A DNA stretch of 64,000 nt from Bradyrhizobium sp. 186 (GTDB lineage Bacteria > Pseudomonadota > Alphaproteobacteria > Rhizobiales > Xanthobacteraceae). Within the stretch, counting starts at the first letter, position 1. Each line of letters starts with the position of its first letter. A model generated the notes under the pieces. The model worked only from the letters and a program-made list of their open reading frames with translations. It was not told where the DNA came from and did no database searches. A program made the translations under genes and the position numbers. Shown here one piece after another: positions 1,968-43,911 of this stretch. The stretch covers positions 2,046,001-2,110,000 of the forward strand of contig NZ_CP082164.1 of assembly GCF_023101685.1 (NCBI RefSeq). The letters run 5' to 3'.

Positions 1968-1989
1968 CGTCATTGCGAGCGCAGCGAAG
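1968..1989 (+). repeat. Left half of class C palindrome split by the IS
   Basis: CGTCATTGCGAGCGCAGCGA followed by AG is the left arm of the common class C palindrome. Its right part resumes at 3761 after the IS. Rejoining 1968-1989 with 3763-3819 restores a complete palindrome ending CGCAATGACG, which fixes the IS boundaries. Confidence 0.85.
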
Positions 1990-2064
1990 ATTCCATGGGG
2001 AGTGGATAGCGACCAGGTCTGAGGCCAGACTGAGGTTGCTGAACCCCTCAACCTGGAGACGACG

Positions 2065-3246
2065 ATGTTGCTCGATCATCCTTCCGACGGACCGACCGCT
2101 ATCCGGACGCAGTTTGGCGCAATTTTTGTGTCTTTGGAACTGAGCCGTTCGACGTGGGTGATTACGTCACTTTCGCCTGGTACGGGCGAGAAGATGTCCA
2201 GGCACAGCGTCACGGCCGGCGATACGGCTGAGCTGATGAAGCTGTTTGCGGAACTCAGGCGCAAGGCGGAGGCCAGGACCCGCGAGAGCTATCCGATCAT
2301 CACGATCCAGGAAGCTGGGCTGGACGGGTTCTGGCTGCACCGTGTTCTGCAACAGAACGGCATTGAGAGCCACGTGGTCGATCCCGCCTCGATTGCGACG
2401 TCGCGACGGCGGCGGCGGGCCAAGACTGACAGGCTCGATGGCGAGGCGCTGTTGCGGGCGCTTCTGGCCTACAAGCGCGGCGAGCCGCGGGTCTGTGCGA
2501 TGGTGGTTGCGCCCTCGCCTGAAGAGGAGGACCGGCGCAGGCTGTGTCGCGAACGAGCGACGCTGATCGCCGAGCGCATCACGCATGTGAACCGGATCAA
2601 GGGTCTTCTGTTCGCGCAGGGGATATCCGACTACGTGCCGCTGCGGCGCAATCGGCGGGCGCGGCTTGAGGCCTTGCGCACGGGCGACGGGCGGGAGCTG
2701 CCTTCGCATTTGAAGGCGCAGATCGGCCGCGAGCTCGATCGGGTCGAACTGCTTCTGGAACAGATCAAGGCGGTCGAGGCCGCGCGAGATGCTCTGCTGG
2801 CCGCAGCCCGGAAGCCTGCAGACAAGAACGCTGCAGACAAGGTCGCGCCGGATCCGGTGGCGATGCTGCTGGCCTTGAAAGGGCTCGGCGCCAACTTTGC
2901 GGCCGTGCTCTGGTCGGAGGCGTTCTACCGGCAGTTCTCCAACCGCCGCCAGGTCGCCGCCTATGCGGGGCTTGCGGCGACGCCGTGGCAAAGCGGAGGC
3001 ATCCGGCACGAGCAGGGCGTGTCGAAGGCCGGCAATCCCAGGCTGCGGACCACAATGATCCAGCTCGCCTGGCTGTGGATACGTCACCAGCCGCAGTCGG
3101 CCCTGACGCGCTGGTTCAAGGAGCGAAGCCCGCAAGGCCGCAAGCGCGCGATCGTGGCGCTGGCGCGCAAGCTTCTCGTGACCTTGTGGAAGTATGTCAC
3201 CGCGGGCGAGACCATCGAGGGGGCCGTGATGAAGCCCGCCGCCTGA
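2065..3246 (+). CDS. IS110-family DEDD transposase/recombinase, copy 1
   Basis: The protein is 393 residues. The N-terminal RuvC-like domain shows TIQEAG (Glu) near residue 90 and AKTDRLDG (the D-x-x-D pair) near 120. A coiled central region follows, and a C-terminal Transposase_20 domain (LLALKGLGANFA, then AAYAGLAATPWQSGG and SKAGNPRLR) holds the likely nucleophilic serine. The first acidic residue of the usual GIDVSK motif is Glu25 here (VSLELS). ATG 2065 has GGAGA about 7 bases upstream. Identical to the product at 8164-9345. Acts as an RNA-guided recombinase in related elements. Confidence 0.93.
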   Translation: MLLDHPSDGPTAIRTQFGAIFVSLELSRSTWVITSLSPGTGEKMSRHSVTAGDTAELMKLFAELRRKAEARTRESYPIITIQEAGLDGFWLHRVLQQNGIESHVVDPASIATSRRRRRAKTDRLDGEALLRALLAYKRGEPRVCAMVVAPSPEEEDRRRLCRERATLIAERITHVNRIKGLLFAQGISDYVPLRRNRRARLEALRTGDGRELPSHLKAQIGRELDRVELLLEQIKAVEAARDALLAAARKPADKNAADKVAPDPVAMLLALKGLGANFAAVLWSEAFYRQFSNRRQVAAYAGLAATPWQSGGIRHEQGVSKAGNPRLRTTMIQLAWLWIRHQPQSALTRWFKERSPQGRKRAIVALARKLLVTLWKYVTAGETIEGAVMKPAA

Positions 3247-3310
3247 TCCGGACCGCACCAAGCGGCGTGCTTCGCCGCCCGCGCGCAACGAAAGAACCAT
3301 AACCCATCTG

Positions 3311-3503
3311 CCGAGGCCCGATCAGTCTCGGAAGATCCGGGTGGACGAACCGATGGATTGCATGGCTTCAAACGCCGCAACGAAGAATGGCCTCGTCCTC
3401 TCGAGCCTGCCCGCCGCAAGCGGAATCGTGGTGCAGTCGCCTTGTGCGACGACCGAATGTGAGTTTGATCTGGCAAGCAACCCAGATCGTCGAACCGGCT
3501 CGA
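3311..3503 (+). ncRNA. Candidate bridge (seeker) RNA of the IS, copy 1
   Basis: Three helices lie in order downstream of the transposase. The first is CCGAG/CTCGG at 3311-3315/3327-3331. The second is GGACGA/TCGTCC at 3343-3348/3393-3398, and the third TCGAGCC/GGCTCGA at 3401-3407/3497-3503. Loop 2 holds TGGATTGC (3354-3361), complementary to the right side of the insertion target, and CGCAACGAAG (3376-3385), a 9/10 match to its left side. Loop 3 holds GGAATC (3422-3427) and ATGTGAG (3457-3463), matching the left and right IS ends, with small hairpins at 3436-3450 and 3467-3488. This is the hairpin, target-loop, donor-loop order described for IS110-family RNAs. The RNA ends are not known; its presence is inferred. 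Confidence 0.6.
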
Positions 3504-3760
3504 CCCTTGGATCGCAAATGCGAGGATGGCAGATGCCCTGACAGAACCGCCAACGCGAGGAGCTCCTATCGGCCCAACGCACCAAGCATGATGGCGTGCT
3601 CGCTCAACTCAAGGCCAAGCCGCTTCGCGGCGGCCCTAACAGGCCGGCCTTGACTTGATCTGCGCGCGCCATCCTGCAGAACCCGCGGTCGGGACGAAGA
3701 GGTGGCTGCAGTCGAACAAAAAGGTGACTGCTCATCCTTGACACACACATTCCCCATGTG

Positions 3761-3819
3761 AGCAATCCAGAATCTTTCCGCGGGGCAGACTGGATTGCTT
3801 CGCTTCGCTCGCAATGACG
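3761..3819 (+). repeat. Right part of class C palindrome split by the IS
   Basis: AGCAATCCAGAATC through CTGGATTGCTTCGC to CGCAATGACG completes the palindrome begun at 1968. The insertion point lies between the GCGA and CAATCC parts, with AG shared by both junctions. Confidence 0.85.
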
Positions 3820-7591: not shown

Positions 7592-7649
7592 CGTCATTGC
7601 GGGCAGCGCAGCAATCCAGAATCTTTCCGCGGCGGCAGTCTGGATTGCT
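7592..7649 (+). repeat. Class C palindrome, target of IS copy 2
   Basis: CGTCATTGCGGGCAGCGCAG, then CAATCCAGAATC and a mirrored CTGGATTGCT lead straight into the IS right end (CACATGGGG). On the bottom strand the target reads CGCAGCGAAGCAATCCAGA, the same as for copy 1. After the IS, only TCGCTGCGCT of the outer arm (to 9432) remains before unrelated sequence. Confidence 0.85.
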
Positions 7650-7906
7650 CACATGGGGAATGTGTATGTCAAGGATGAGCAGTCACCTTTTTGTTCGACT
7701 GCAGCCACCTCTTCGTCCCGACCGCGGGTTCTGCAGGATGGCGCGCGCAGATCAAGTCAAGGCCGGCCTGTTAGGGCCGCCGCGAAGCGGCTTGGCCTTG
7801 AGTTGAGCGAGCACGCCATCATGCTTGGTGCGTTGGGCCGATAGGAGCTCCTCGCGTTGGCGGTTCTGTCAGGGCATCTGCCATCCTCGCATTTGCGATC
7901 CAAGGG

Positions 7907-8099
7907 TCGAGCCGGTTCGACGATCTGGGTTGCTTGCCAGATCAAACTCACATTCGGTCGTCGCACAAGGCGACTGCACCACGATTCCGCTTGCGGCGGG
8001 CAGGCTCGAGAGGACGAGGCCATTCTTCGTTGCGGCGTTTGAAGCCATGCAATCCATCGGTTCGTCCACCCGGATCTTCCGAGACTGATCGGGCCTCGG
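7907..8099 (-). ncRNA. Candidate bridge (seeker) RNA of the IS, copy 2
   Basis: This is the minus-strand equivalent of 3311-3503. The 5' hairpin maps to 8079-8099, the target loop to 8012-8067 with the guide match at 8049-8056 (TGGATTGC on the minus strand), and the donor loop to 7907-8009. The guide segments read the same as in copy 1, consistent with both copies having chosen the same target sequence. Confidence 0.58.
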
Positions 8100-8163
8100 C
8101 AGATGGGTTATGGTTCTTTCGTTGCGCGCGGGCGGCGAAGCACGCCGCTTGGTGCGGTCCGGA

Positions 8164-9345
8164 TCAGGCGGCGGGCTTCATCACGGCCCCCTCGATGGTC
8201 TCGCCCGCGGTGACATACTTCCACAAGGTCACGAGAAGCTTGCGCGCCAGCGCCACGATCGCGCGCTTGCGGCCTTGCGGGCTTCGCTCCTTGAACCAGC
8301 GCGTCAGGGCCGACTGCGGCTGGTGACGTATCCACAGCCAGGCGAGCTGGATCATTGTGGTCCGCAGCCTGGGATTGCCGGCCTTCGACACGCCCTGCTC
8401 GTGCCGGATGCCTCCGCTTTGCCACGGCGTCGCCGCAAGCCCCGCATAGGCGGCGACCTGGCGGCGGTTGGAGAACTGCCGGTAGAACGCCTCCGACCAG
8501 AGCACGGCCGCAAAGTTGGCGCCGAGCCCTTTCAAGGCCAGCAGCATCGCCACCGGATCCGGCGCGACCTTGTCTGCAGCGTTCTTGTCTGCAGGCTTCC
8601 GGGCTGCGGCCAGCAGAGCATCTCGCGCGGCCTCGACCGCCTTGATCTGTTCCAGAAGCAGTTCGACCCGATCGAGCTCGCGGCCGATCTGCGCCTTCAA
8701 ATGCGAAGGCAGCTCCCGCCCGTCGCCCGTGCGCAAGGCCTCAAGCCGCGCCCGCCGATTGCGCCGCAGCGGCACGTAGTCGGATATCCCCTGCGCGAAC
8801 AGAAGACCCTTGATCCGGTTCACATGCGTGATGCGCTCGGCGATCAGCGTCGCTCGTTCGCGACACAGCCTGCGCCGGTCCTCCTCTTCAGGCGAGGGCG
8901 CAACCACCATCGCACAGACCCGCGGCTCGCCGCGCTTGTAGGCCAGAAGCGCCCGCAACAGCGCCTCGCCATCGAGCCTGTCAGTCTTGGCCCGCCGCCG
9001 CCGTCGCGACGTCGCAATCGAGGCGGGATCGACCACGTGGCTCTCAATGCCGTTCTGTTGCAGAACACGGTGCAGCCAGAACCCGTCCAGCCCAGCTTCC
9101 TGGATCGTGATGATCGGATAGCTCTCGCGGGTCCTGGCCTCCGCCTTGCGCCTGAGTTCCGCAAACAGCTTCATCAGCTCAGCCGTATCGCCGGCCGTGA
9201 CGCTGTGCCTGGACATCTTCTCGCCCGTACCAGGCGAAAGTGACGTAATCACCCACGTCGAACGGCTCAGTTCCAAAGACACAAAAATTGCGCCAAACTG
9301 CGTGCGGATAGCGGTCGGTCCGTCGGAAGGATGATCGAGCAACAT
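8164..9345 (-). CDS. IS110-family DEDD transposase/recombinase, copy 2
   Basis: The 393-residue product is identical to that of 2065-3246, with an intact RuvC-like N-terminal domain and C-terminal Transposase_20 domain. Both copies therefore look active at the protein level. The start ATG at 9345 has the same GGAGA ribosome binding site. The element lies between the MFS gene and a fragment of a different IS110-family transposase. Confidence 0.93.
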   Translation of the reverse strand: MLLDHPSDGPTAIRTQFGAIFVSLELSRSTWVITSLSPGTGEKMSRHSVTAGDTAELMKLFAELRRKAEARTRESYPIITIQEAGLDGFWLHRVLQQNGIESHVVDPASIATSRRRRRAKTDRLDGEALLRALLAYKRGEPRVCAMVVAPSPEEEDRRRLCRERATLIAERITHVNRIKGLLFAQGISDYVPLRRNRRARLEALRTGDGRELPSHLKAQIGRELDRVELLLEQIKAVEAARDALLAAARKPADKNAADKVAPDPVAMLLALKGLGANFAAVLWSEAFYRQFSNRRQVAAYAGLAATPWQSGGIRHEQGVSKAGNPRLRTTMIQLAWLWIRHQPQSALTRWFKERSPQGRKRAIVALARKLLVTLWKYVTAGETIEGAVMKPAA

Positions 9346-9458
9346 CGTCGTCTCCAGGTTGAGGGGGTCAGCAACCTCAGTCTGGCCTCAGACCTGGTCG
9401 CTATCCACTCCCCATGGAATCTTCGCTGCGCTAGGAAGAAACTGCTGGAGAACTGGCG

Positions 9459-42746: not shown

Positions 42747-43747
42747 TGCATCACCTCGTTGTCGATCTGGCCGCGCTCGACATATTGCAGCGTCAGCTCG
42801 GCCAGCGCCGGCGCGATCAGGAAGCCGTGGCGGTAGAGCCCGTTGACGGCGATCCTGTCGCCGCGAACGCCGATGCGCGGCAGATTGTCGGGGTAGGCGG
42901 GGCGAAGGCCCGAGCCGAATTCGACGATGCGGGCCTCGCCGAAGGCCGGATGCACGGCATAGGCCGCGCCCAACAGCTCCAACGCGGAGCGCACGCTGAC
43001 GCCGGTGTCCTCGGCCTCGATCGAGGTCGCGCCCAGCATGAACAGGTTTTGCTCGCGCGGGATCACGTAGAGCGGCCAGCGCGGATGGATCAGCCGCACC
43101 GGGCGGGCAAGCTGCACCTCGCTGGTCTCGATCAGGATCATCTCGCCCTTGACGCCGCGCAGATCCGGCTGCTCGTCGCGCGCGCCGAGGCCGCGGCAGT
43201 CGATCACGATGCCGTCGAGGTCGGCGACGGCTACATCGCTTCCAAACCTGATGGTGCCGCCGGCGGCGCGGATGCGCTCGTGCAGTTTCGGCAGCACGCG
43301 GCGCGGCTCGACATGGCCCTCGGTCGGGAAAAACAGCGCGTCGCGGAAGCGGCCCTCCAGCGACGGTTCGAGCTGCGCGAGGCCGGCGGCATCGAGCCGG
43401 CGGTGGCCCTCGGTCATCCCCGCAAAACGCTCAAAGTCGTTGCGCTCGCGCGGATGGGCGACGACGAGCGAGCCGTTGAACGGGGTGTCTGGCAATTCGC
43501 GCCGCCAAATGTCGAGCGAGCGCAGGCCGAGCCGGCTGATGATGGGTTCGGAAACTTCCGCCTCGCACCGGGGCGCCAGCATGCCGCCGGCCCAATGGCT
43601 GGTGGCATCGGTCATCCCTGCGTCACCGCGCTCGTGCAGGGTCACGGCGTGGCCGGCCTGCGCGAACAGCAGCGCCTGCCAGGCTCCTGCGATGCCTGCG
43701 CCGATGATGGATATCGAGGAATCCGGTCGCTTGGTCGTCTGCAACAT
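42737..43747 (-). CDS. thiO: Glycine oxidase ThiO
   Basis: The protein is 336 residues. The FAD motif is IIGAGIAGAWQALLFAQAG at the N-terminus; HWAGGMLAPRCEAE, EGHVEPRRVLPKL, DCRGLGARDEQPDLRGVKGE and the C-terminal GLYRHGFLIAPALAEL are ThiO/DadA-type blocks. It oxidises glycine to the imine used by ThiG. It is the first gene after the TPP riboswitch. Confidence 0.93.
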   Translation of the reverse strand: MLQTTKRPDSSISIIGAGIAGAWQALLFAQAGHAVTLHERGDAGMTDATSHWAGGMLAPRCEAEVSEPIISRLGLRSLDIWRRELPDTPFNGSLVVAHPRERNDFERFAGMTEGHRRLDAAGLAQLEPSLEGRFRDALFFPTEGHVEPRRVLPKLHERIRAAGGTIRFGSDVAVADLDGIVIDCRGLGARDEQPDLRGVKGEMILIETSEVQLARPVRLIHPRWPLYVIPREQNLFMLGATSIEAEDTGVSVRSALELLGAAYAVHPAFGEARIVEFGSGLRPAYPDNLPRIGVRGDRIAVNGLYRHGFLIAPALAELTLQYVERGQIDNEVMQCA

Positions 43748-43752
43748 CCCTG

Positions 43753-43857
43753 TCCCTTCGCCGGCATGACCCGGATCAGGTTCAAAGGGTCACCGCGGTC
43801 CCGGGCCTTCTGACCCATTTAGCGGTATCTCAGCTCCTCCTCGGAGCACCCCTCGGA
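43753..43857 (-). promoter_or_regulatory. thiO: TPP riboswitch (THI element) upstream of thiO
   Basis: On the minus strand the leader reads GAGGGGTGCTCCGAGG, then AGCTGAGATACCGC with the conserved GCTGAGA, and ACCCTTTGAACCTGATCC, GGGTCATGCCGGCGAAGGGA. These are the P1-P5 core signatures of the thiamine pyrophosphate aptamer. It ends about 6 bp before the thiO start, so control of translation initiation is likely. Confidence 0.95.
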
Positions 43858-43911
43858 ACGGCTCTAATGTAGGCCAGTGGGGCTGTGTGTCAACGCGTTA
43901 GCCACAGAGCA

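Follow-up and report, generated by a model that had tools for sequence, protein, structure and literature searches.

Two described systems stand particularly close to the one presented here. In IS621 and ISCro4, as set out in the cited parts of PMC11208160 and PMC11208158, the bridge RNA consists of a 5′ stem-loop, a target loop and then a donor loop, with two guides per loop. In the IS1111 elements ISEc11, ISPa11 and ISKpn4, according to the cited parts of PMC11187229, the corresponding seekRNA lies in the downstream non-coding region and its top-strand match precedes, on the 5′ side, its bottom-strand match. Targeting of repetitive extragenic palindromes (REPs) by IS110-family elements is also known: ISPa11, ISPpu9, ISPpu10 and ISRm19 are always found in REPs in the cited part of PMC1525189, and Bradyrhizobium REPs are described in the cited parts of PMC5082802 and PMC3733652. 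We analysed a stretch of 64,000 nucleotides, hereafter the window, from the 10.77-Mb genome of Bradyrhizobium sp. 186 (contig NZ_CP082164.1, positions 2,046,001 to 2,110,000, forward strand). At positions 1988 to 3762 of its + strand the window carries an insertion sequence (IS) whose sole long gene encodes an IS110-type transposase of 393 residues (2065 to 3246, + strand). An earlier note, made from the letters of this DNA alone, had read a bridge (seeker) RNA in the 3′ non-coding region. We find it very probable that this region indeed encodes the predicted bridge RNA of an IS110-type recombinase: stems covary, guides agree with targets and donor ends across relatives, the target is constant within the genome, and the predicted fold of the recombinase matches that of IS621.

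The non-coding region is 514 nt long downstream of the transposase gene, as compared to about 76 nt upstream, as in the IS1111 group. The predicted RNA was delimited at 3306 to 3503 (+ strand) from an alignment, A1, and from pair counts. The starting set comprised 56 related loci with a distinct, N-free non-coding region of at least 250 nt; paralogues of the same genome (L054-L059) and truncated elements (L096, L122, L124) had been left out beforehand. Removal of the misaligned L079, L104, L119 and L133 gave 52 regions, and further omission of distant or extended regions (L118, L123, L127, L129, L130) and of near-copies (L099, L116, L117) gave the 44 regions of A1. On this alignment, RNAalifold returned 32 pairs, 18 of them with double changes. 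The 5′ hairpin (3308 to 3334, + strand) shows double changes in eight of nine pairs. It is followed by the target-binding loop (3343 to 3398, + strand), with an apical hairpin at 3363-3377 and a closing stem GGACGA/TCGTCC that shows double changes in five of eight closing pairs, and by the donor-binding multiloop (3401 to 3503, + strand) closed by the stem TCGAGCC/GGCTCGA. The structure used for scoring was written by hand from the RNAalifold result, the donor stem and a 3′ hairpin. In A1, 90.1% of its cells pair, as compared to at most 43.4% for slid versions, a comparison that favours the hand-written structure because it was derived from these very sequences. Double-change cells in the stems number 166, as compared to 59.6 in shuffles. 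The hairpin and both stems named in the earlier note are all present, and the covariation that it had proposed as a check is found. A pairing of columns 34-37 with columns 105-111 competes with the donor stem, and the two are not separated. Against Rfam, region 3200-3800 gave at best a weak match (E 5.4).

The insertion site of the element is a REP palindrome. The left target half CGCAGCGAAG (1980 to 1989, + strand, from sequence and flank comparison) lies in a REP and the right half CAATCCA follows the element (3763 to 3769, + strand); the target reads GCGAAGCAATCCA. Because the flanks read GCAGCGAAG before ATTCC...ATGTGAG and CAATCCA after it, the overlap is AG, or CT on the other strand, which agrees with the CT core that the earlier note saw from the bottom strand. 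The IS is thus 1,773 bp long plus this 2-bp overlap, which is assignable to either side (flank comparison of copies, 23 loci). At these loci of the genome, all 22 left junctions end with CGAAG and 20 of 23 right-junction rows start with CAATCCA, that is 19 of 21 distinct junctions since two loci overlap. The exceptions are L018, which has the near-match CAAATCCA, and a tandem junction shared by L019 and L022. Copies with the same guides therefore share their target. The exact sequence CGAAGCAATCCA occurs at 69 sites genome-wide, as compared to 0 for the reversed control. At the tandem locus (L019/L022, G000:C1:1280578-1283874), a full copy is directly followed by a 5′-truncated one, the right end being fused to internal transposase sequence.

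Within the target loop, the right-target guide TGGATTG (3354 to 3360, + strand; TGGATTGC at 3354) is complementary to the top-strand CAATCCA, and the left-target guide with the AG core, CAACGAAG (3378 to 3385, + strand), resembles the top-strand CAGCGAAG (1982-1989). The donor loop holds GGAATC (3422 to 3427, + strand), complementary to the left end GATTCC, and ATGTGAG (3457 to 3463, + strand), identical to the right end at 3756. All the motifs named in the earlier note, including CGCAACGAAG at 3376-3385, stand where it had placed them. In dinucleotide shuffles of the non-coding region, an exact 7-mer complement of the right flank arises in 3.0%, a left 8-mer with one mismatch in 36%, and both target matches in 1.1%. 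Taken alone, the guide matches of the window element are moderate evidence.

The guide-target matches across relatives are decisive evidence. Guide registers were set by eye from the window element and its relatives, then applied to all elements. A right flank that could be used was available for 38 elements, which provided 22 distinct right guides, each represented by one element. Watson-Crick pairs form at 123 of 154 positions, as compared to a mean of 43.7 and a maximum of 74 in 20,000 shuffles, and 11 other offsets gave 28-54 pairs. Examples of such guide/flank pairs are AGTGCAA/TTGCACT (L078), CTCAAAG/CTTTGAG (L101) and ACAAGAA/TTCTTGT (L072). The left guide was compared in 40 elements, where it takes 28 distinct forms; these pair at 130 of 168 positions (shuffled mean 48.5, maximum 80; other offsets 33-56). 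Agreement at positions -6 to -1 is seen in 10, 28, 32, 38, 38 and 37 of the 40 elements, respectively. This slightly amends the earlier note: the part of the left guide that tracks the target amounts to about 5 nt plus the AG core. On the donor side, the guide agrees with the right end in 39 of the 39 rows where this end was found, by a search pattern that admits few variants. Facing the left end, GGAAT lies opposite ATTCC in 11 of 11 cases and GGGA faces C there in 29 of 31.

Several observations weigh against a bridge RNA. A fold of the window sequence by itself does not surpass those of its shuffles (z -0.58), and the 3′ hairpin of the predicted RNA is only 73% paired. The right guide fits poorly in L083 (3/7), L094 (0/7), L098 (3/7), L107 (4/7) and L126 (1/7), and the left guide in L076 and L138 (3/6). 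In L094 and L126 there seems to be a one-base shift; the other poor fits are unexplained. Both the structure and the guide registers were drawn from the tested sequences themselves, and relatedness stays in the shuffles. The region could be a mere 3′ untranslated region with stem-loops, the protein alone recognising REP palindromes and the guide matches being due to chance. The unremarkable single-sequence fold and the shuffles in which both target matches arise would suit this explanation, as would the use of REPs as targets by several IS families (cited part of PMC1525189). It is nevertheless hardly credible, since 22 right and 28 left distinct guides track their targets across relatives in one fixed register. 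The earlier note had cautioned that the short matches might in part be chance; the comparison across relatives, a check that it had itself proposed, settles the matter in their favour: guides and insertion sites change together.

If the region encodes a bridge RNA, the mechanism may be outlined by analogy with published work on IS621 and IS1111, from which we infer RNA expression, complex formation, a circular form and the chemistry. The IS110-type recombinase would bind the RNA, with its 5′ hairpin, target loop and donor loop. Of the two guides in the target loop, TGGATTG would pair with the top strand on the right side of the AG core, and CAACGAAG with the bottom strand on the left side; this pairing would select the REP sites GCGAAG/CAATCCA. 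The donor-loop guides GGAATC and ATGTGAG would pair with the two IS ends, left and right, which meet in the circular form. Strand exchange at AG would then be the work of the RuvC-like site together with Ser310. The motif CTTGACA (3737 to 3743, + strand), -35-like and present at the right end of most relatives, is possibly part of a circle-junction promoter; no convincing -10 to accompany it was seen.

The transposase contains both the RuvC-like domain PF01548 and PF02371, as in the IS110 family sensu lato, and matches NF033542, 'IS110 family RNA-guided transposase'. It departs from the DEDD catalytic motif at the first Asp, which is Glu25, while E83, D122, D125 and S310 are kept. In the predicted model, residue 19 aligns with IS621 residue 5; residue 25 would for this reason occupy the position of D11 in IS621, if no gap lies between. 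Glu in place of the first Asp in this lineage looks new. The methods in the cited part of PMC11187229 required the DEDD motif for sequence selection, and no description of the Glu variant, or of the second module presented below, was found in searches of the open-licence PMC literature, which is weak evidence of absence.

Besides the element discussed so far, the window carries a second full copy of the same IS (7648 to 9422, - strand), and genome-wide there are 21 identical transposase genes of full length, besides two partial ones. At L020 and L021 (G000:C1:7320578 and 6809580), the right end is lost and the REP remnant beyond is still there. Such losses, together with the replacement of the first catalytic Asp, would be expected if the copies of this genome were inactive relics whose guides only record past targeting. 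We consider this improbable: Glu25 is invariant in 33 of 33 aligned sequences of the lineage, and the 21 copies encode the full 393-residue protein at 100% identity, which indicates recent movement.

A second structured module lies at 3589 to 3731 (+ strand), beside the predicted bridge RNA. It comprises a long hairpin followed by GGTCGGGACGAAGAGGTGG...CGAACAAAAAGGTGAC, two direct repeats that vary together. In an alignment of 46 loci (A4), 142 double-change cells were counted, as compared to 44.7 in shuffles, a result favoured by the fitting of the alignment to the model. The mean longest word shared by the two repeats is 6.52, as compared to 4.16 in shuffles with a maximum of 5.3 (27 distinct pairs). 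In 11 of the 46 loci the motif finder did not succeed, and the repeats of L209 share only 3 bases. G-U cells number 152 and A-C cells 31, an excess that fits an RNA on this strand, for a structure that was itself predicted on this strand. A protein encoded by the repeats was dismissed by eye, the reading frames being different, as were target-site duplications, the same repeat being present in several element types. The covarying module looks new, and it has no Rfam match. In the whole window, the sole gathering-level Rfam match is a TPP riboswitch at 43735-43863 (- strand).

The covariance model of the module, R1, gave matches in 42 of 60 genomes of the same genus, own genome included. The latter contains 42 matches with E below 1e-4. 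On contig 1, all but one of 41, hence 40, follow a PF02371 gene on its 3′ side and share its strand, with constant spacing; the match on contig 2 likewise follows a PF02371 gene. The module recurs in Bradyrhizobium elements L054-L058, whose transposases are about 39-41% identical to that of the window element. Since it stands in the same 3′ region and could belong to the same transcript, it might be part of the bridge RNA, for instance a processing or protein-binding tail. This is unlikely. By blastn the module has no match in the examined relatives of about 46-72% identity, mostly of other genera with one Bradyrhizobium (L073), and nine of those relatives gave no good model match. The exceptions holding it, L095 and L137, come from Bradyrhizobium and have broken genes; their best segments show 76% and 59% identity. 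Another element of the genome, present in 7 copies and with a 12-bp inverted repeat, has the transposase first, the module next and then a region with TGACCCGAAT and GTCCGCTAAT (by eye), so that the module precedes the bridge RNA. This element (L221 and six copies, L222-L227) is IS1111-type, with 43% identity to IS4321, and these two guides match its own flanks.

The module is also antisense to other IS110-type genes, right behind them, in L195 and L214 (Pfam) and in L196, L203, L205 and L210 (near-identical N-termini), and it is found beside other kinds of genes. A related transposase gene lies upstream on the same strand in 25 of 46 module loci, as judged with two reference transposases. In L202 the module is inside the end of an ISNCY transposase open reading frame (NF033594, 335.9 bits, cut-off 250), and in L194 by likeness. 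Elsewhere it has an SLT transglycosylase gene on one side and, on the other, an S26 peptidase gene (best NCBIfam match TraF, below cut-off). The S26 gene is beside it in L204, L208, L211, L215, L217 and L218, and the SLT gene in L204, L208, L211, L217 and L218; L220 has this setting by likeness. In annotated plasmid regions, an IS110-type gene adjoins the match in six of ten (L189, L190, L243-L246); the four without one, L239 (ISL3), L240, L241 (integrase) and L242, match over 52-57% of the query. In a draw of 190 genomes of the class, at least four genomes had a module match, one being the window's own; misses are likely because scoring stopped at 16 candidates for each genome. From viral contigs, a motif scan returned 25 loci; on these together with the loci of the nine relatives, R1 made 13 matches, all with E of 0.051 or above. 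Phage records gave no match.

As to function, we think that the module most probably acts as a portable RNA that would regulate or stabilise transcripts of mobile elements. We lean slightly towards an undescribed RNA-like module that has passed among unrelated alphaproteobacterial mobile elements, its orientation and its side relative to the bridge RNA varying from one to another, and that would act as a portable accessory RNA or regulator. Here it would work with a bridge recombinase of the 'EEDD' type, in which the family-defining motif takes a natural variant form. Such a module, if true, would add a new component to those that mobile elements share. The Glu variant would make the metal-site requirement of a bridge recombinase directly testable. 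The relatives, whose transposase lineage is remote from the two recombinases solved so far, offer a set of naturally reprogrammed pairs of guide and target for an IS1111-like RNA. Should none of these hold, the RNA would simply be one more member of a class that has been known since 2024.

As compared to the described systems, the window element agrees with the IS1111 seekRNAs of the cited parts of PMC11187229 in the downstream position of its RNA and in guide order (3354-3360, then 3378-3385), which supports the earlier note's reading of a bridge RNA. It shares the 7-bp and 3-bp extensions of that group, AGATTCC (1988 to 1994, + strand) and GTG (to 3760), when AG is put on the left and the repeat is taken as 7 bp, and, with ISPa11, the targeting of REPs. 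The subterminal inverted repeat, ATGGGGA (1995 to 2001, + strand) and TCCCCAT (3751 to 3757, + strand), is 7 bp long, or 8 bp, CATGGGGA, with the adjacent C, at the lower end of the 7-17 bp of the IS1111 group. Unlike IS1111 transposases, which have 330-350 residues, that of the window has 393, with only 26% identity to IS4321, as compared to 43% for another transposase of the same genome. At the GL-P----S(T)G motif it reads GLAATPWQSG, without Pro there. The Glu residue and the extra module further set the element apart. By 69.6% identity its transposase falls in the same subfamily as that of ISRel9, which alone bears a name of the ISfinder style among the records listed, 60 of 447. With IS621 and ISCro4 (cited parts of PMC11208160 and PMC11208158), the element shares the 5′ stem-loop, the loop order, the two guides per loop, the CT core from the bottom strand and the fold, which is here predicted. 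It differs from them in its downstream RNA, in a guide order reversed relative to the transposase strand and in its multiloop donor guides, an arrangement that the cited part of PMC11208160 describes for many IS1111 RNAs. The guides of the window RNA covary with both target and donor, as those of a bridge or seeker RNA do.
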